DNA of 64,000 bases. Source: Gammaproteobacteria bacterium (GTDB lineage Bacteria; Pseudomonadota; Gammaproteobacteria; Tenderiales; Tenderiaceae). Positions within the stretch are counted from its first letter, which is position 1, and each line of letters begins with the position of its first letter. Shown one piece after another: positions 9,907 through 18,844 of this stretch. The translations under genes were made by a program, and so were the position numbers. The notes beneath the pieces are model-generated. The model ran no database searches, was not told where the DNA came from, and saw only the letters and a program-made list of their open reading frames with translations. The stretch is taken from NCBI GenBank assembly GCA_016200485.1, contig JACQEP010000010.1, positions 186,001 to 250,000 of the forward strand. The letters are read 5' to 3'.

Positions 9907-10449
9907 TTATCCTTTCATCTGCAACGGCAGCCCTGCCACCATCAACACCACTTGTTCGCATTGCGTCGCTAGCGCCTGATGCAACACACCTGCTTCATCA
10001 CAAAATCGCCGACTGAGCTGTCCCATCGGCACCACACCCATATTCACTTCATTACTGACAAAAATGATGCGCCCCGGCAAACTTCCCGCAATCTTCAGCA
10101 ACTCCTCTCGCTGCCGTTCCAATTCGGCATCATCTTCCAGCAGCAACAAATTCGTCAACCACAAGGTCAAACAATCAACAATCAGACAACGATCCTGCGC
10201 CGCGTGCTGCTGCAAAGCCATCGCCAAGGCAATGGACTCTTCAATCAATACCCAGTCAGCAGGCCGCTCGGCACGATGTTTCTCGATACGCGCCTGCATC
10301 TCCACATCCCTTGTTGTGGCAGTAGCAATATACACCACCGGCAAACCGCTCACCGCAGCCAACGACTGGGCATACCTGCTTTTCCCGGAGCGTACCCCGC
10401 CCAGAATCAGGCTATGAAATTGTGGGTTCTTGTAAACTGCATTCACCAT
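9907..10449 (-). CDS. cobU: adenosylcobinamide kinase / adenosylcobinamide-phosphate guanylyltransferase
   Basis: 180 residues. It phosphorylates adenosylcobinamide and then attaches GMP, both for de novo synthesis and salvage. The P-loop is G-G-V-R-S-G-K-S-R near the N-terminus, followed by the A-T-A-T-T-R-D segment and the R-I-E-K-H-R-A-E-R-P motif whose histidine carries GMP in the family. The ATG at 10449 overlaps the TGA of the upstream nucleotidyltransferase by one base (TGATG), so translation is coupled. This is the junction where a cobalamin operon has been fused to the HPr-rel-A cassette. An alternative TTG start lies one codon upstream. Confidence 0.95.
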   Translation of the reverse strand: MVNAVYKNPQFHSLILGGVRSGKSRYAQSLAAVSGLPVVYIATATTRDVEMQARIEKHRAERPADWVLIEESIALAMALQQHAAQDRCLIVDCLTLWLTNLLLLEDDAELERQREELLKIAGSLPGRIIFVSNEVNMGVVPMGQLSRRFCDEAGVLHQALATQCEQVVLMVAGLPLQMKG

Positions 10450-11549
10450 CAATTATCCCCGCCCAGCGGCGCCGAAGTCGTATGACGCTTGAACGCCTTA
10501 CGCACCAAGTGCGGGATCAATAAATGAGGCGGCATCCGCAGGTGGTGTGACCGCACATATAACAACCAGCGAGCCGTCGGCGTAAACCAGTCTTCGCAAC
10601 TTTCATGCGTCGGCGCCAGCGCCCTGGTAAACAGACTATCCATCCAGCGACTCATGGCCTGACCACCCCCCATGCTTGCGATGCGGGATAATACACTCTC
10701 CGGAATCGGGGTCGCCAACATTCGTTGCGTGTACCGTAAGGCATAAAACAAGGGGCGCCCCAAACCCAACTCTCCCGCACGTGCACACAGCTGATCCCAG
10801 AAACCTTCATCTGCCGAAAAATGCCGCAACAACAAATCAAGATCGCTCAAATCCCGCAGCCCATGCTCCAACTCACCATCACTGAATAAATGGGCCGCAC
10901 TATGCAAAACCAGGTCGCAATCACTCAGCACCAAAACACCTGCCATATCGTCGACAGGTTGCGCCGAGGCAAACAGCTTTGCAGGGTCGAGCGGCAAATG
11001 TCCTGTTGGCGGCAGAATCGTGTGATGCACATCCAACACCGTCTGGCGTTGCATATGTTGCAATGGTGGTATCTCATGCATCCAGATTCGATAATACCGC
11101 TGATCGTAAGCGTCATGATGCGTGGTCATCCAGCCATGCAACATCAAGCCATTCTCAACGGCTGCCAGCCTTTCTTTTGGCACCAGGATGTCGATATCGG
11201 AAAATAACCGTCCCACCGCGGGTGGCAAATCTGCCATGAGATAGGCAGCGCCTTTGAGCAACACGATTGGCACGTTTAATGTCGCCACTGCCTGTGCTAT
11301 TTTCGCCACTTCAAAACGCACGACTTGCGCATGTTTTTCGACAACGCATATCGCAGATTCAAGATGGACGCGGGGTTGTGCTGGCACAGTTTCCAGCAAG
11401 CCACCACGTTGCAGAATCACCGCGATTCTGCCTAGCAACTCGGCGAAACGTGCCTGTCTGATTAGCAAATCCCATTCGGCGAGTGAATACTGACGACTCT
11501 GCTCCGGCGAGCGAATTATTTCTGTGACCAAATTGCGCCGGATATTCAT
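10449..11549 (-). CDS. nucleotidyltransferase family protein of the HPr-rel-A type cassette (NTP_transf_5-like)
   Basis: 366 residues, no signal peptide. The core of a nucleotidyltransferase fold is visible: L-L-K-G-A-A-Y (residues 97-103) and the metal-binding F-S-D-I-D-I-L-V (116-123, Asp118 and Asp120). This matches the uncharacterised nucleotidyltransferase family usually found beside HprK-related kinases. Its ATG overlaps the stop of the kinase gene (ATGA). In lasso-peptide clusters a protein of this general kind modifies a phosphorylated C-terminal serine, so one reasonable idea is that it acts after the kinase on the exported 219-residue protein. No substrate is known. Confidence 0.8.
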   Translation of the reverse strand: MNIRRNLVTEIIRSPEQSRQYSLAEWDLLIRQARFAELLGRIAVILQRGGLLETVPAQPRVHLESAICVVEKHAQVVRFEVAKIAQAVATLNVPIVLLKGAAYLMADLPPAVGRLFSDIDILVPKERLAAVENGLMLHGWMTTHHDAYDQRYYRIWMHEIPPLQHMQRQTVLDVHHTILPPTGHLPLDPAKLFASAQPVDDMAGVLVLSDCDLVLHSAAHLFSDGELEHGLRDLSDLDLLLRHFSADEGFWDQLCARAGELGLGRPLFYALRYTQRMLATPIPESVLSRIASMGGGQAMSRWMDSLFTRALAPTHESCEDWFTPTARWLLYVRSHHLRMPPHLLIPHLVRKAFKRHTTSAPLGGDN

Positions 11550-12466
11550 TGTGCTGGCTCCAACGCATTGAATATTTGTAGCGCATCATCCAGCTGGCTA
11601 TATTTGAAACTGTAGCACTGGCATTGATCCAGCATTGAGGTCAACGCTTTAAAAGCGCTGCCTGACAGAATATTATAATTAAAACTATTTTCTGCCAGCC
11701 GCATGCAGATCCGGCCTTTGGAAAGCGGGGATAACACTGCCTCCGCACCTGCCTCGTAACGAGGCAGAATCACCCATGCCGCTCTTGCAGGAATATTTGC
11801 CCGCTGAACGCTAGCCAGTGACGGTTTCATATGCGCCACCACGCCTTTATGGGTGTCGACGGCCAGCCGCCCGAGCACTGCCTCGGGCGCATAATTCCGA
11901 ATAATATCGATCGATTGATTTTTAAGACTGACCGGCCTGGGGATAGGGATCACCAGATTCTGTTCAAGACTTAGCAATGCCATTTCATCTGATAGCAATC
12001 GCCAGCCACGATTAATCAAGGCAGCACACAGCGTACTTTTTCCCGACCCCGGCGGTCCCGGCAAAATTACGGCATAACCATTTTTTTCAATGACCGCTGC
12101 ATGAATATTCAAATAACGATGAATATGATTGGCAACACACCAGTTGAGCGCCCACTCAAACATCGGGAAGGCCTGACTCAGCGGCAACGGCTTGAAGGGA
12201 TGATAACCGTCGAATGAAAATTCGACTTGTGGTTTTAACCAATGGCGCCAATTGCGCGGACGCGCCAGCTTGACGTGAAAATCCGCAAACTCTGATTCGA
12301 GCAAAGGATAATCACCATAAAGCAAATGAATGCCTTCGGCGACTGTTGGTAAGGACGATCGCAGGTGAACAACCAATGGCCCAGTGCGAAGATAGACCCC
12401 CGGATCCGCCAACCGTTGCCGCAACTCTGCCGCAGAAAGCGAGGACAGGGTCAATCCGGCAGGCAC
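11546..12466 (-). CDS. HprK-related kinase (HprK-related kinase A type)
   Basis: 306 residues. The C-terminal half is an HPr kinase-like P-loop domain: L-P-G-P-P-G-S-G-K-S-T-L (residues 135-146) followed by a D-E pair at about 160 (L-L-S-D-E-M), where HprK has its acidic catalytic residues. The first 120 residues are specific to this branch. There are no PTS genes in the window, so it is not a classic HPr regulator. The same fold in lasso-peptide pathways phosphorylates the last serine of the precursor. Start taken as GTG 12466, overlapping the PqqD-like gene by 16 bp; a TTG at 12454 is a less complete alternative. Confidence 0.85.
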   Translation of the reverse strand: MPAGLTLSSLSAAELRQRLADPGVYLRTGPLVVHLRSSLPTVAEGIHLLYGDYPLLESEFADFHVKLARPRNWRHWLKPQVEFSFDGYHPFKPLPLSQAFPMFEWALNWCVANHIHRYLNIHAAVIEKNGYAVILPGPPGSGKSTLCAALINRGWRLLSDEMALLSLEQNLVIPIPRPVSLKNQSIDIIRNYAPEAVLGRLAVDTHKGVVAHMKPSLASVQRANIPARAAWVILPRYEAGAEAVLSPLSKGRICMRLAENSFNYNILSGSAFKALTSMLDQCQCYSFKYSQLDDALQIFNALEPAQ

Positions 12467-12738
12467 TCGATCACACCCAACTGCGCCAGCCCCTGCAATC
12501 TGGCTTGAATCAATTCCACGAACTCCGCATCGGCCTCACAGGCGTGAGATATAGCCATTTGTTCAATCAATACCTGTTGCTCAAATGGTAATCTAGTCAG
12601 AGAACGGATCAATACCGCACTGAGTGTATCAAAGAGATGGGTATCACCGGAGAAGCGGTCAAACACGACTACCTCGTCTTCCCAGGTATGCCAGAGAGGG
12701 TTAAACCCCGGCATCAATTGCCAGCGCTGCGATTTCAT
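12451..12738 (-). CDS. PqqD-like protein of the HPr-rel-A type cassette
   Basis: A 95-residue protein with the PqqD fold pattern: a beta start, then D-R-F-S-G-D-T-H-L-F-D-T-L-S-A-V-L (residues 27-43) and two helices ending in L-A-Q-L-G-V-I-E. PqqD-like domains bind the leader part of peptide substrates and deliver them to modifying enzymes. It lies between the candidate substrate gene and the kinase, and overlaps the kinase gene by 16 bp. It is too distant from PqqD itself to suggest pyrroloquinoline quinone, and no pqqA, pqqC or pqqE is present. Confidence 0.8.
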   Translation of the reverse strand: MKSQRWQLMPGFNPLWHTWEDEVVVFDRFSGDTHLFDTLSAVLIRSLTRLPFEQQVLIEQMAISHACEADAEFVELIQARLQGLAQLGVIECLPD

Positions 12739-12759
12739 GCCAGCAATGATAATGCGTCT

Positions 12760-12780
12760 CGCCGCTGACTAAAAGCGGCG
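12760..12780 (-). promoter_or_regulatory. stem-loop between the exported protein gene and the PqqD-like gene
   Basis: CGCCGC and GCGGCG pair perfectly around a nine-base loop, without a following T tract on the transcribed strand. It lies in the only gap of the cassette (67 bp). It could stabilise or process the mRNA so that the first gene is made in excess over the modifying enzymes. Confidence 0.4.
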
Positions 12781-12805
12781 TGACCGTTCTTATTACCCGA
12801 TATTA

Positions 12806-13465
12806 TCAGGAACCGAACAGCGTCTGCACGGTACCCGCGCGATCCTCGGCGTGATTCCAGGCATCGAACAGCGCGGCCAGTGCGGCGGTATTACCGTAGT
12901 TATTGTTATACAGTGTGATCACCGTATCCGGTGACATCCCCCAGTTTTCCTGATTCAGACCAAAGCGTTGCAACCCCCACGCCTCCAAGGCGTTAAGGTA
13001 TGCAGCCACCGTCTGAAAGCCCATCTGAAAGGGATCCTGGCTGCCATCCATATCCATCACCTGGATCAACGTGGCCCCGCCAAACTTACTACCCGCGAAA
13101 ATGGAGTGGAACAGCGTAGTGGGGAGCGCGGGCGCGGGCCAATTTTCTTTATTACGATACGCGGTGCCATATTGTGTGCGGCTGGCTTTTTTTCCTTCGG
13201 CGAAAAAAGTCCCACCCTTCCAGAAACCGGGAGACCTACCAAAACAGGTGCCAGTGCTTGTGTTGGACAGATTCCCCGAGAGCAACCCTGATAGCGTGCA
13301 GTTGTAATACCCCAACGCCGGACGGCTGGCCAAGGTCATGATGACGGGGGCAGCGATAAGACTGGCGCGGGTGAACTGGCGCCGCGACTGATCGGTGCCT
13401 TTCTCCGGCGCGGTCACCGGCACGTTATCCTGAGATTGATCCTGCTGCCCATGTTCATTCATCAT
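12806..13465 (-). CDS. Tat-exported protein with SPGFWK motif, candidate substrate of the HPr-rel-A cassette
   Basis: 219 residues. The N-terminal 27 are polar, then S-R-R-Q-F-T (residues 27-32) is a twin-arginine motif, followed by a hydrophobic segment (34-46) and a likely cleavage site near A-L-G (50-52). The mature part has two cysteines (56, 74), a Ser/Asn/Thr-rich stretch (59-72) and S-P-G-F-W-K (78-83), a motif seen in many secreted bacterial proteins. It is about 140 residues, without membrane segments, and the last residue is Ser219. A good ribosome site (GGAGAG) precedes the start. It is the first gene of the cassette, next to a peptide-binding PqqD-like protein, so it is the natural candidate for modification and export. 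Function unknown. Confidence 0.75.
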   Translation of the reverse strand: MMNEHGQQDQSQDNVPVTAPEKGTDQSRRQFTRASLIAAPVIMTLASRPALGYYNCTLSGLLSGNLSNTSTGTCFGRSPGFWKGGTFFAEGKKASRTQYGTAYRNKENWPAPALPTTLFHSIFAGSKFGGATLIQVMDMDGSQDPFQMGFQTVAAYLNALEAWGLQRFGLNQENWGMSPDTVITLYNNNYGNTAALAALFDAWNHAEDRAGTVQTLFGS

Positions 13466-14405: not shown

Positions 14406-15206
14406 ATGCAGCCCCCCATTGTCATAATCGGTATCGGTGAAATGGCCGGTGTATTCGCGCGTGGACTATTACGTTGCGGACATCCGCTGATCCCCATCCT
14501 GCGCCATATGGAGCTGGAACAGGAAGCGCTCACCATCCCGGCACCGCACTTGGTATTAGTCGCTGTCGCAGAGGCCGACCTCCAGCCACTGCTTGAAAAA
14601 ACGCCAATTGCCTGGCGCGACCGGCTGGTGTTGCTACAAAACGAATTGCTGCCGCGCGATTGGGAACACCACGGCCTCGACAACCCGACAATCATCTCCG
14701 TGTGGTTCGAAAAAAAGAAAGGTCAGGACGCAAAAGTGTTGCTGCCATCGCCGGTTTTTGGTCCGCATGCTCACACGGTCAGCGCAGCACTCAATGCCAT
14801 CGCCATCCCCAGCACCATTCTTAGCGATGCCGAAGCGCTTCGTTATGAGCTGGTACGCAAGAATGTTTATATCCTGACCATTAATATTGCGGGCCTGATC
14901 ACTGGCGGCACCGTCACGGAGCTCTGGCGCAACCATCAACCATTGGCGCGTGCGGTGGCCGATGACGTGATGACGATTCAGGAATACCTGGTCGGAGATT
15001 CGCTGCCACGAGAACGACTGATCAATGGCATGCTGGAGGCCTTTGCCGGCGATCCCGAACATAAATGCCTCGGCCGCACGGCATCACAACGTCTGGAGCG
15101 CGCCTTGCAGATTGCCGATGCGGCCGGTCTCTCGGTGCCCACATTGGAAGAGCTGGGGGCGCGCTTTCTTAACCGGCCATCGCTGCAGTCAAAGGTTGGC
15201 ACGTGA
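14406..15206 (+). CDS. NAD(P)-binding Rossmann-fold protein, ketopantoate reductase-like
   Basis: 266 residues. The N-terminus has a dinucleotide-binding G-I-G-E-M-A-G-V-F (residues 9-17) after a beta strand, and the general build (Rossmann domain to about 150, helical C-terminal domain) recalls PanE/ApbA ketopantoate reductases or 6-phosphogluconate dehydrogenase relatives. The usual PanE catalytic Lys/Glu positions cannot be assigned with confidence, so the substrate is unknown. The stop overlaps the start of the large secreted protein (GTGA), an odd partner for a cytosolic dehydrogenase. Confidence 0.6.
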   Translation: MQPPIVIIGIGEMAGVFARGLLRCGHPLIPILRHMELEQEALTIPAPHLVLVAVAEADLQPLLEKTPIAWRDRLVLLQNELLPRDWEHHGLDNPTIISVWFEKKKGQDAKVLLPSPVFGPHAHTVSAALNAIAIPSTILSDAEALRYELVRKNVYILTINIAGLITGGTVTELWRNHQPLARAVADDVMTIQEYLVGDSLPRERLINGMLEAFAGDPEHKCLGRTASQRLERALQIADAAGLSVPTLEELGARFLNRPSLQSKVGT

Positions 15207-18200
15207 ACTATCGTCTTTTCCAAGCCGTATTCCGTTGCTCATATTTTTTCCTGATGGGATGTTTATCGCTATTTATTGGTGGCGCACAGGCAGCCACCTA
15301 CACCATCACCGACCTTGGCGCCAATATCCAGCCACTGAGTATCACTGACTCTGGTCAGATTGTCGGCATCGACACGACCACCACACCGCCACGCGCGGTG
15401 TATAGAAGTGGAGGCTCTTGGCTAACATTACATAACTCCGGCAAAGCCGTTTCCGCCGGTGACAGTGGTCTCATCGCTGGCCACATCATCAATTCTCCCA
15501 ATCGGGCACAACTGTGGCGCGATGGGCAAACCATCAATGAACTTGATACCTTCAGTGGCATGCTTGAGGCGCGCGGCATCAACGGGCTCGATGAAGTAGT
15601 AGGCATCCGCAAACTCGATAGCGGCGCCAGACGCCCATTTATTTTTGATTACGTCACCGGCTCACTCAAAACACTCACCACGCTCGGTGGCGCAGAAGGC
15701 TGGGCCAATGCCATCAATCAACGCGGCCAGGTCACAGGCAGCGCCCAGGATAGTAATGCCCAGCCAACCGCGTTTATTTATTTGCCCGATAAAGACACCG
15801 TCACCAGCCTGCAAACCCTCAGCGGCTTTACCGGCAGCGAGGGAGCATCTATCAACGATTCAGGAATCGTTGCCGGATGGGCGTTTAACGGCTCATCGGA
15901 AAATCTGGGACGGCGTGCAATCCTGAGCTCAACCGAAAAGGGTATTATCAATTTGGGTGCCCTCGATAAGGACGTCACCAGCTTTGCCAAAGGGATCAAC
16001 AACGGCGAGATCGTTGTTGGACAATCCATTGGCGCCAATGGTAATGAGCGTGCCTTTCTGTATCAGTTTGCAAGCACTGAACGTTCTGTCATTACCGTCG
16101 CCCCCAATAATCTCAATCGAGTACTCACGGGTGATGCCAATGGCGCCGGCATCTATCAATCCCTGAATAAAGGTCTGACCTGGGATGTAACAAATATCGG
16201 CCTCAACGACAAACATGTATCCTGCATCGAATTCGACAAGACAAACACCAACCTCATCTATGCCTGTACTGCCGGTGGCTTATACAAGAGCGTCGATGGC
16301 GGCGTCACTTGGTTCTTTACTTCTAAAGGCATCGATAAACCCACCACCATAGGCACAGGTACCGATCCCGCCCACGTTTTTGTCATCCTCATAGATGCAC
16401 GCAATCCCAATCACTTGTTTGTTGGTGCCGAAGTGGGTCTGTTCGAAAGCAATGACACCGGCACGACGTGGAAGCAAATCACAGATGTGGCTGGCGCGGT
16501 CTATGATCTTATCCAACAACCTTCCACCAAGACCCAGTTTTTCGCCGCGACCACACGCGGCGTCTACCGTTTCCGCGAAGGCACCACAGGCGCCACTTGG
16601 CAACAATCCAATGGTGATGCCCGCGCCACCCCCTCCACCGGACTTGTCCCCCTGCAAGTCGCCGCTTTGGCCATCGATCCCAATGAACCCAGCACCCTGT
16701 TTGCGGGAACCCTGGGGGGTAGTGTTTACTCCACATCGATTAACCCTGATACCCCGCTAAGCTGGTCTCAAAAAACCACCGGCATGACCAATACCGAGGC
16801 GGTCTACTCACTCAAGTTTGACACCGAGGATTTGACAACAGTTGGCGCGAGCCACATCAGCAAACTCTATGCCGGTACCACACGCGGCCTGTTTACTACC
16901 ACTGACCAAGGCACGACCTGGACCCGCAACGCCAACTTTCAGACGGGTGGCGTCTATTCGATGTCGTTCAGTTCAAATTTCGCCACCCTTTATCTCACCA
17001 CGCATGATGGCAATTCATGGTACAGCGACGACAGAGGCGCAAACTGGACCAATATCACGCGCGGCTCCGTCACGGGCGACACATACGAAATCCTGAATGT
17101 GCCCACTTCACCGCCGGTCATTCTGGCCGGTAGTTCAAAAGGCGTTTTTAAACTCAACGTAGATAGCTGGCAAGCCGCCTTCAGTGCCGCTGCCGGGACA
17201 AAAGTCGTTACCATCGTTGCCAATACCTTGACCAATCCCGCAACCTACTGGCTAGGCACCACTGACAAAGGGATTTATCGTTCCACCGATGGCGGCACCA
17301 GCTGGAACACAATCAACACCGGACTGAATAACTGGAATGTGTACGCCTTGGTTGCCGATACCAGTGCCAGCCCGGTGCGTCTCTATGCAGGCACCATGAA
17401 CGGTGTTTACCGCAGCGACGACAATGGTAACTCATGGACCTTGGGCAATACCGGGCTGAGTAACGGCAATGTCTACAGCTTGCTGCTCGACACCCACACC
17501 AGCCCCAATCGACTGTACGCAGGCACTGCCAATGGCGTTTATCGCTCGACGGACAATGGCAACAGCTGGGTTCCTGTAAATACCGGACTACAAAACATTC
17601 CTATCTCCAGTTTATTGATCACCAGTACCTGGGATCTTTATGCCGCCAGCACCAAGAGTGGCGTTTTCAAAAGCACAGACAGTGGAGTTACCTGGAGCAA
17701 CATCAGTGCCGCTCCGCTCAATAGCACCGTCCACGCCATCAAGCGTGATTCCGCTAACACTATCTATGCGGCTACCGCCAAAGGGGTATACAAATATTCT
17801 GTCGGCACCTGGTCAAACATCAGCAATGCCAGTTTAAGCGACATCGAGGTTTTCGGCCTGGAAGTTATTGATGCCAACACCCTCTACGCCGGCACCAATA
17901 GCAAGGGCGTTTATTCCACCACCGATGGCGGAAGCACATGGTCCGTGTTAGATAAAGGACTCACCGAAACCTCCGTCACCATCCAAGACATCACCAGCAT
18001 CGTCAATAATGCCGACTGGGAACTGCATGACGCCACCGCCATCAACAACAACGGACAAATCATCGGCTGGGGCATGTATCAGGGACAAGCGCACGGTTAT
18101 TTATTAACCCCTGCCAATGGCGTACTCACTGCCAACTTGAGCATTAGCCAATCGGTATATCCTTCCACCATCAAGAAGGGCATACCGCTGACTTTCCAGA

Positions 18201-18844
18201 TTCGCATCTACAATGCCGGCCCTACCACCGCCACCAATGTACGGTTCAAGGATTGGCTCCCACCCAACACCCTCTACCATCATGCGTCCACCAACAATGG
18301 TGGCTGCGTCAAGGAACCGGGCGAAGTGGTACGCTGCTCACTGTTTGATATTGCGCCGGGCGCCACAGCCATTATCAATATTTCGCTACAACCGAATGTA
18401 GAGAGCCAGAAACTACGCAACATCGCGCAGGTGAAAGCGGATCAAATCGATACCAACTTCAGTGACAACACAACGGGTGAGACCGATTATGTTCAGGTAG
18501 ACCGCTGCTTTATCGCAACGGCGGCTTATGGCTCCTTCCTTGACCCCCATGTCGAGACCTTGCGTAACTTCCGCGATGAGGTATTACTAAAATCGGAGAT
18601 CGGACGTGTGTTCGTAAAATATTATTATCAATATTCGCCACAACTGGCAAAGATCATCAGCGAACATGCATCGCTGAAACTGCTGACACAAGCGATCTTG
18701 ACGCCGATTATCTTTGCAATCACCTATCCTATCGTAGCGCTTCTGATACTGACTTTACTCGGTAGCTGGCTTATTCGGCGCCGGTTTCAAAACGGTAGGG
18801 GCACGGCGCGCCGTGCCCCTACTATGCCGGCCGCACCTTATTAA
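15203..18844 (+). CDS. large secreted HAF / Asp-box / DUF11 protein with CFI-box C-terminus
   Basis: 1213 residues. A signal peptide (about 1-31, ending A-Q-A) leads into HAF repeats (about 33-290; I-T-D-S-G-Q-I-V-G, I-N-Q-R-G-Q-V-T-G). A long run of Asp-box (BNR) repeats follows (about 300-930; S-x-D-x-G-x-T-W units such as S-T-D-G-G-T-S-W), as in beta-propellers of sialidases and Vps10 proteins. Then come another HAF unit, a DUF11 domain (about 965-1095) and a C-terminal CFI-box segment: C-F-I-A-T-A-A-Y-G-S at 1102-1111, a membrane helix (about 1165-1188) and R-R-R. It should be surface-anchored. The last 16 residues come from a REP palindrome read in frame. GTG start, overlapping the preceding stop. 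Confidence 0.85.
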   Translation: MNYRLFQAVFRCSYFFLMGCLSLFIGGAQAATYTITDLGANIQPLSITDSGQIVGIDTTTTPPRAVYRSGGSWLTLHNSGKAVSAGDSGLIAGHIINSPNRAQLWRDGQTINELDTFSGMLEARGINGLDEVVGIRKLDSGARRPFIFDYVTGSLKTLTTLGGAEGWANAINQRGQVTGSAQDSNAQPTAFIYLPDKDTVTSLQTLSGFTGSEGASINDSGIVAGWAFNGSSENLGRRAILSSTEKGIINLGALDKDVTSFAKGINNGEIVVGQSIGANGNERAFLYQFASTERSVITVAPNNLNRVLTGDANGAGIYQSLNKGLTWDVTNIGLNDKHVSCIEFDKTNTNLIYACTAGGLYKSVDGGVTWFFTSKGIDKPTTIGTGTDPAHVFVILIDARNPNHLFVGAEVGLFESNDTGTTWKQITDVAGAVYDLIQQPSTKTQFFAATTRGVYRFREGTTGATWQQSNGDARATPSTGLVPLQVAALAIDPNEPSTLFAGTLGGSVYSTSINPDTPLSWSQKTTGMTNTEAVYSLKFDTEDLTTVGASHISKLYAGTTRGLFTTTDQGTTWTRNANFQTGGVYSMSFSSNFATLYLTTHDGNSWYSDDRGANWTNITRGSVTGDTYEILNVPTSPPVILAGSSKGVFKLNVDSWQAAFSAAAGTKVVTIVANTLTNPATYWLGTTDKGIYRSTDGGTSWNTINTGLNNWNVYALVADTSASPVRLYAGTMNGVYRSDDNGNSWTLGNTGLSNGNVYSLLLDTHTSPNRLYAGTANGVYRSTDNGNSWVPVNTGLQNIPISSLLITSTWDLYAASTKSGVFKSTDSGVTWSNISAAPLNSTVHAIKRDSANTIYAATAKGVYKYSVGTWSNISNASLSDIEVFGLEVIDANTLYAGTNSKGVYSTTDGGSTWSVLDKGLTETSVTIQDITSIVNNADWELHDATAINNNGQIIGWGMYQGQAHGYLLTPANGVLTANLSISQSVYPSTIKKGIPLTFQIRIYNAGPTTATNVRFKDWLPPNTLYHHASTNNGGCVKEPGEVVRCSLFDIAPGATAIINISLQPNVESQKLRNIAQVKADQIDTNFSDNTTGETDYVQVDRCFIATAAYGSFLDPHVETLRNFRDEVLLKSEIGRVFVKYYYQYSPQLAKIISEHASLKLLTQAILTPIIFAITYPIVALLILTLLGSWLIRRRFQNGRGTARRAPTMPAAPY
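17246..17590 (+). repeat. tandem 44-45 codon repeats inside the Asp-box protein
   Basis: Three consecutive units with the pattern L-Y-A-G-T-x-N-G-V-Y-R-S-x-D-N-G-N-S-W, then N-T-G-L. They are spaced 135 and 132 bases apart, and the last two are near-identical in protein and close in DNA. This points to recent internal duplication of propeller blades. Confidence 0.7.
18795..18822. repeat. REP-like perfect palindrome (GTAGGGGCACGG type)
   Basis: GTAGGGGCACGGCG followed by its exact reverse complement CGCCGTGCCCCTAC. Identical 28-base copies lie at 52392-52419 and 58517-58544. This one is inside the end of the preceding reading frame, where it encodes the R-G-T-A-R-R-A-P tail. Confidence 0.9.

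Follow-up and report, generated by a model that had tools for sequence, protein, structure and literature searches.

A four-gene cassette on the minus strand of a 64,000-nucleotide stretch from a bacterium of the Tenderiaceae (class Gammaproteobacteria; contig JACQEP010000010.1 of assembly GCA_016200485.1; hereafter the window) probably encodes a leader-guided protein-modification system, in which an exported protein would be the substrate, phosphorylated on serine, elaborated by a nucleotidyltransferase and exported by the twin-arginine translocation (Tat) pathway. The genes encode, in order, the exported protein, a PqqD-like protein, an HprK-related kinase and a nucleotidyltransferase-like protein of the NTP_transf_5 family. 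With slightly less confidence, we regard the cassette as part of a large, functionally undescribed superfamily of serine-modification systems in the Pseudomonadota, guided by a recognition element (RRE) of the kind found with ribosomally synthesized and post-translationally modified peptides (RiPPs). The twin-arginine signal would itself be the RiPP leader in this superfamily, and the substrates, from peptides of about 56 amino acids (aa) to folded proteins of 200–300 aa, would carry an elaborated phosphate near the new N-terminus and undergo Tat export.

Recurrence of the four genes

The four-gene set is widespread and recurs beyond chance. Every open reading frame (ORF) in 80 named loci encoding relatives of the kinase was classified by profiles grown from the window proteins. 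The pairing of the exported protein with the other three genes, put forward in the original prediction, held up in this set: the protein is a conserved partner of the trio, and likely its substrate, since it adjoins the trio in 79 of the 80 loci, directly upstream in 78 and downstream in one (L096). A PqqD gene is likewise present in 79/80, and the nucleotidyltransferase gene lies directly 3′ of the kinase gene in each of the 79 loci where the sequence extends far enough. Two apparent gaps were rejected. The seeming absence of PqqD from some loci was an artefact of start choice, as PqqD overlaps the kinase ORF there, and the nucleotidyltransferase seemed to be missing from 17 loci in which longer overlapping ORFs hid it.

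The association was also counted in one fixed set of 369 genomes of the class. A kinase over the TIGR04352 cut-off is found in 41 of them and a partner match in 47; four of these 47 matches concern the C-terminal domain only and fall in large proteins that have neither leader nor motif. Leader-bearing partners occur in 37 of the 41 genomes with such a kinase versus 6 of the 328 others (Fisher p 5e-40). In each of the six excess genomes, a short peptide with the leader adjoins a distant HprK-like kinase that scores below the cut-off. Four kinase genomes have no partner match: in three, a divergent leader-bearing partner stands beside the kinase (L013, L211, L214), and in the fourth the locus ends at the contig end (L221). 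When the divergent partners are counted, a partner lies beside the kinase in 40 of the 41 genomes, so that it is far from being absent in most genomes with the trio.

This coupling bears on a regulatory reading, in which the kinase would be an HPr kinase/phosphorylase with HPr or the PqqD-like protein as its target and the exported protein would be a co-regulated output. The P-loop and the catalytic His and Asp do align with those of HPr kinase/phosphorylase, and this distant similarity speaks for such a role. However, the TIGR00679 score is 27.3 bits against a cut-off of 240, and the constant coupling is to a leader-bearing partner, not to phosphotransferase system genes. A regulatory role is therefore very improbable.

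The genes around the cassette vary while the four stay together. Among the 79 loci, an XrtA-type exopolysaccharide export gene is a neighbor in 13 and PrmC in 13; in the window, the cassette is flanked by cobU and a gene for a PduO-type cob(I)alamin adenosyltransferase. No single role follows from these neighborhoods. ORF calls place all four genes of the window where the original prediction, made from the letters alone, had put them, and the row it described is real, including the overlapping ends of the last three genes: 16 bases between the PqqD-like and kinase genes and 4 between the kinase and nucleotidyltransferase genes, with a further 4 between the nucleotidyltransferase gene and cobU.

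Candidate serines and the twin-arginine leader

The candidate modification region was located in an alignment of 101 partner proteins (the relatives of Table 1), the mean column identity of which is 14%. Directly behind the twin-arginine leader stands a C-x-x-S-G-x-x-S-G-N motif, in which C56 is kept in 99/101 sequences; S67, just beyond it, is kept in 87/101. Both serines of the motif, S59 and S63, are conserved throughout or nearly so (Table 1), and the S63 column is also invariant in alignment A2. AlphaFold2 gives residues 1–70 of the exported protein a pLDDT of ~47–62, outside the confident helical domain. Packing of the predicted fold therefore does not account for the invariant serines. 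From this pattern of conservation, S63 and/or S59 would be the most likely modified serines of the exported protein.

The original prediction had instead placed the phosphate on Ser219, the last residue of the window protein. A precedent exists in PadeK, ThcoK and SyanK, which modify a C-terminal Ser (PMC9266682). Among the relatives the last residue varies freely: it is Ser or Thr in 14/101 (Ser 12, Thr 2) versus 15.5% Ser plus Thr in the preceding 20 residues. As this is the background rate, Ser219 is no candidate, and the short partners described below end in D, Y, S, H, K and other residues. We give a C-terminal site next to no credence.

The leader has its SRRQF twin-arginine motif at residues 27–31. 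Its conserved positions are R28 (100/101), R29 (101/101), T/S44 (98/101) and S47 (86/101). Export is predicted from the S/T-R-R-x-F motif, the hydrophobic stretch, the AxA-type cleavage point (ALG) and the arginine pair (100/101), all of them features of Tat signals, and TatC is encoded in the window's genome. Seven other Tat-like signals of this genome served as a control, and neither the TLxSRP element nor the YxxPx[LVI] motif is found in any of the seven. A register of T-L/V-x6-A/G, running from the Thr to the expected cleavage point at T+8, is common to the three substrate classes treated in the next section.

A conserved signal of this kind could also be the target of a Tat proofreading chaperone. 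The PqqD-like protein would then mask the signal until folding, the kinase and nucleotidyltransferase would act elsewhere, for example on exopolysaccharide, and the serines would be structural. Chaperones that bind Tat signals are known (redox enzyme maturation proteins; PMC3316669), the exopolysaccharide export gene beside some of the cassettes is suggestive, and S59 and S63 lie between conserved cysteines. Such a chaperone would not, however, account for partners with unrelated mature parts that retain nothing but the leader and a Ser close to it, for serines that occupy a low-confidence segment outside the fold, or for the constancy of the four genes amid varying neighbors. We consider a chaperone role unlikely.

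The exported protein is single-copy in the window's genome. Pfam and NCBIfam searches with this protein and 86 relatives gave only isolated weak matches in the relatives and none for the window protein, and a PDB sequence search and fold comparison of the exported protein gave no convincing match. Outside the cassettes, the TPGYWKNH-like C-terminal domain comes without leader and without the serine motif; one orphan copy has both (L276), in a genome that also has the cassette. The TPGYWKNH-like domain is also found at the end of large exported-looking proteins outside cassettes (L277–L282), with no covering Pfam family.

Table 1. Cassette genes and features of the exported protein, in window coordinates.
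Feature	Position	Strand	Description
Exported partner, candidate substrate	12806-13465	minus	219 aa, last residue Ser219; ORF, no known family
PqqD-like protein (RiPP recognition element type)	12451-12738	minus	95 aa; TIGR04353 51.5 bits, cut-off 35
HprK-related kinase A	11546-12466	minus	306 aa; TIGR04352 408 bits, cut-off 200
Nucleotidyltransferase-like protein (NTP_transf_5)	10449-11549	minus	366 aa; PF14907 192 bits, cut-off 31
Twin-arginine leader, residues 1-52 (SRRQF ... PVIMTLASRPALG)	13310-13465	minus	Proposed export signal and docking leader
Motif C56-T-L-S59-G-L-L-S63-G-N-L-S67	13265-13300	minus	Candidate modification region, from conservation in 101 relatives
Codon of Ser63	13277-13279	minus	Ser in 101/101 relatives, never Thr
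Codon of Ser59	13289-13291	minus	Ser in 100, Thr in 1 of 101 relatives
Helical C-terminal domain, residues 110-212	12830-13138	minus	AlphaFold2 pLDDT mostly 80-95

Candidate substrates from short peptides to proteins

Judged by their sequences, the related systems form a series from short peptides to proteins of 200–300 aa. Class A comprises the window-type partners. Class B is found at nine loci, each with a kinase that passes the cut-off; its members have unrelated mature parts and nothing in common beyond the leader and a Ser at mature position +2/+3 (9/9). Class C is made up of 56–149-aa peptides, together with some orphans, beside kinases that fall below the TIGR04352 cut-off and are accompanied by PqqD and NTP_transf_5 genes. 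Its members follow the pattern SRRxFLKKxAYxAPxVLTLxAxPxxA, then Gly-Ser, with a variable remainder. The first class C alignment (n=14) has an invariant R, R, F, Y, A, P and A in the leader and an invariant G and S next to it, and Gly-Ser falls within the first mature residues in all class C peptides fitting the register. Class C leaders carry YxxPx[LVI] (Y 20/21, P 21/21), and the best scores of the class C PqqD proteins are on lasso-peptide PqqD models. One match to the short-peptide model (L213, genome G272), without the arginine pair and without a kinase, was discarded as a false positive.

The class C alignment, trimmed to the leader so that no residue beyond it could guide the result, was run on 398 genomes of the phylum. 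Of 29 other loci reached in this way, 13 lie ≤1.5 kb from an NTP_transf_5 gene, and the majority of the remainder encode ordinary Tat proteins. A wider view of the loci revealed Cys-rich precursors (leader Y[VIAT]PP, core ..S[AS]GxxACCPC) with radical SAM/SPASM, PqqD, HprK-like kinase and nucleotidyltransferase genes. Radical SAM/SPASM and PqqD genes beside a small Cys-rich precursor are a hallmark of RiPP clusters, and the leader found by this route is therefore very likely a RiPP leader. In other Pseudomonadota, the loci L262–L269, L273 and L275 combine a twin-arginine leader and an ACCPC core with radical SAM/SPASM, PqqD, HprK-like kinase and NTP_transf_5; these Cys-rich clusters probably represent a RiPP class not yet described.

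Plasmid records reached through the kinase provided a second test. At seven of the nine loci examined, the kinase has beside it a twin-arginine ORF in which a Ser closely follows the cleavage point, five found by profile and two by pattern. The Vibrio alfacsensis plasmid locus harbors a class A partner, CSITSCMSGNAS. On Methylobacterium tardum pMt-1 (L285 2621-2905), an unannotated ORF of 94 aa, with an RR leader and YTAPVLL followed by ASGS, lies directly before a PqqD-HprK fusion. Rhizobial and roseobacter loci (L291 3542-6225, on Sinorhizobium meliloti pSymB, and L287, L288 and L289) have an HprK-like kinase and NTP_transf_5, and in their twin-arginine peptides of 70–103 aa the cleavage point is soon followed by a Ser. 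Conservation of the first 49 residues extends to many Sinorhizobium plasmids. L291 comes from S. meliloti strain Ak57, and its peptide has 103 aa. Because a related locus is present on S. meliloti pSymB, the system could be tested in a genetically tractable species.

Enzymes and relation to known systems

The catalytic residues of the enzymes are conserved. In 28 relatives of the kinase, the His, the Walker A Lys and the Asp-Glu pair are invariant and align with the His, P-loop and Asp-Asp of HprK. R114, D118 and D120 are the invariant residues of the nucleotidyltransferase, which is modelled by AlphaFold2 at a pLDDT of 93.7; the PDB structures closest to its fold, though weakly similar, belong to nucleotidyltransferases, ANT(2'')-Ia among them. 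Natural fusions tie kinase, PqqD and glycosyltransferase activities together: PqqD-HprK (L171, L285), glycosyltransferase 2-PqqD-HprK-like (L218 728-2656) and HprK-like with glycosyltransferases 2 and 25 (L219 868-3276).

The closest described systems are the linear polyphosphorylated peptides (LPPs) of Bacillota (Popov et al. 2026; PMC13381572), made from precursors of 35–200 aa with a conserved N-terminus and a variable C-terminus. An RRE, an HprK-like kinase and an NTP transferase occur together there as in the window cassette, and both kinds of cluster are often near polysaccharide loci. Discrete RREs of lasso and LPP systems bind [Y/W]xxPx[L/V/I/A/F/Y] (PMC13381572); the YxxPx[V/L] leader motif of LPPs is kept here in the short peptides only. 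LppK phosphorylates Ser3 of the core (AQSNWK) and does not accept Thr or Tyr at that position (PMC13381572), a preference that fits the Ser-only conservation in the exported partners, and the phosphorylated Ser near the LPP core N-terminus has its counterpart in the conserved candidate Ser behind the leader. The systems differ in that LPPs belong to Bacillota and the present cassettes to Pseudomonadota, where a twin-arginine signal would serve as leader and the substrate has a folded domain. The SipW-like peptidase and MsbA-like exporter of LPP clusters are not directly beside the window cassette (the rest of the genome was not searched). Nor is the LPP motif YxxPxVLxHQxIxFETxxS found: the window leader reads IAAPVIMTLASRP, and no short peptide has the HQxIxFET part.

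The comparison with phosphorylated lasso peptides (paeninodin/PadeK, ThcoK and SyanK; PsmK/PsmN) drawn in the original prediction is apt, as both have an HprK-like kinase with His, Lys and Asp, an RRE, and a nucleotidyltransferase-family protein that in lasso peptides acts after phosphorylation. In pseudomycoidin, hexoses are added to phosphoserine in a PsmN-dependent manner (PMC9266682). These phosphorylated lasso peptides are modified on the C-terminal Ser of a macrolactam, whereas the candidate site here is internal and the C-terminus variable. The lasso B2 protease and C cyclase are not found directly beside the window cassette or among the 25 commonest neighbor families of the 79 loci.

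Three further comparisons place the cassette. Curated cut-offs assign both the window kinase and the PqqD-like protein to the HPr-rel-A system of NCBIfam (TIGR04352, TIGR04353); these family names state no substrate, and no paper in the literature searched uses them. The SynChlorMet cassette resembles the present systems in its HprK-like (ScmC) and PqqD-like (ScmD) proteins and, for the radical SAM/SPASM loci (class D), in those enzymes as well, but the scores fall far short of the cut-offs (ScmC 32.5 bits vs 125 in the window; ScmD at most 40.5 vs 100 in the relatives). By anatomy, the present systems would fit RiPPs in general, with a leader-bearing candidate precursor beside putative modifying enzymes.

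The LppK and PsmN precedents (PMC13381572, PMC9266682) suggest how the proposed system could work. The exported protein would be made with a twin-arginine signal that doubles as leader. The PqqD-like protein would bind this leader and present the protein to the kinase, which would phosphorylate a conserved Ser just behind it, most likely Ser63 and/or Ser59. The NTP_transf_5 protein, on the model of PsmN, may then elaborate the phosphate by nucleotidylation or sugar addition. Tat, which is able to carry pre-modified folded proteins, would export the product, and cleavage of the leader near residue 52 would leave the modified Ser 7–11 residues from the new N-terminus.

In a variant of this scheme, the exported protein is still the substrate, but the Ser is a direct target of the nucleotidyltransferase, which nucleotidylates or glycosylates it, while the HprK-like protein adds a phosphate to some other place or takes one away there. 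The fixed place of the nucleotidyltransferase directly after the kinase, its retention of R114, D118 and D120, and the glycosyltransferase-PqqD-HprK fusions are consistent with this variant. It is made improbable by the characterized HprK-like kinases with RREs, which phosphorylate the precursor Ser, by the deletion of LppN, which had no visible effect (PMC13381572), and by PsmN, which acts on an already phosphorylated Ser (PMC9266682).

Several points weigh against the phosphorylation scheme as a whole. The support comes from sequence: the gene association, the conserved leader, the invariant serines, the catalytic residues and the series of related systems. The window kinase reads His-Lys-Asp-Glu, so that the second acidic residue of the catalytic His-Lys-Asp-Asp motif of lasso-peptide kinases (PMC9266682) is replaced by Glu. 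YxxP is not kept in the window's substrate class (P40 in 36/101 only), and because class A has largely lost it, leader recognition by the window PqqD-like protein is suggested by the relatives. About half of the leader-only matches are ordinary Tat proteins without a cassette. One locus, in a Nitrosospira metagenome-assembled genome (L045), has kinase and nucleotidyltransferase genes without PqqD or exported partner, and at L270 and L271 a PqqD-like gene and a leader-bearing partner are found with no kinase detected. Finally, S59 and S63 could be structural, standing beside the conserved C56 and C74.

The original prediction considered a protein-scale system of this kind undescribed. That view needs to be qualified, as LPPs are made by this enzyme set acting on an internal Ser. 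Lasso peptides and LPPs have already made the enzyme kit and its chemistry known, a chemistry demonstrated to date for small peptides only, and the HPr-rel-A trio has been named by NCBIfam. As far as the searched literature shows (most subscription papers and preprints lie outside it), the new elements are the partner family, the internal Ser, the use of a Tat signal as the leader for an RRE, and the reach into many Pseudomonadota and to exported proteins that are folded. If the phosphorylation scheme is true, the HPr-rel-A trio gains a substrate and a site, RiPP-style leader-guided chemistry is no longer confined to peptides but takes in folded proteins destined for export, and a single signal peptide serves both Tat export and docking for modification.

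Elsewhere in the window, positions 15203-18844 encode a protein of 1213 aa; it has a DUF11 domain and five stretches of sortilin/VPS10 type, and its C-terminal region contains CFIATAAYGS.

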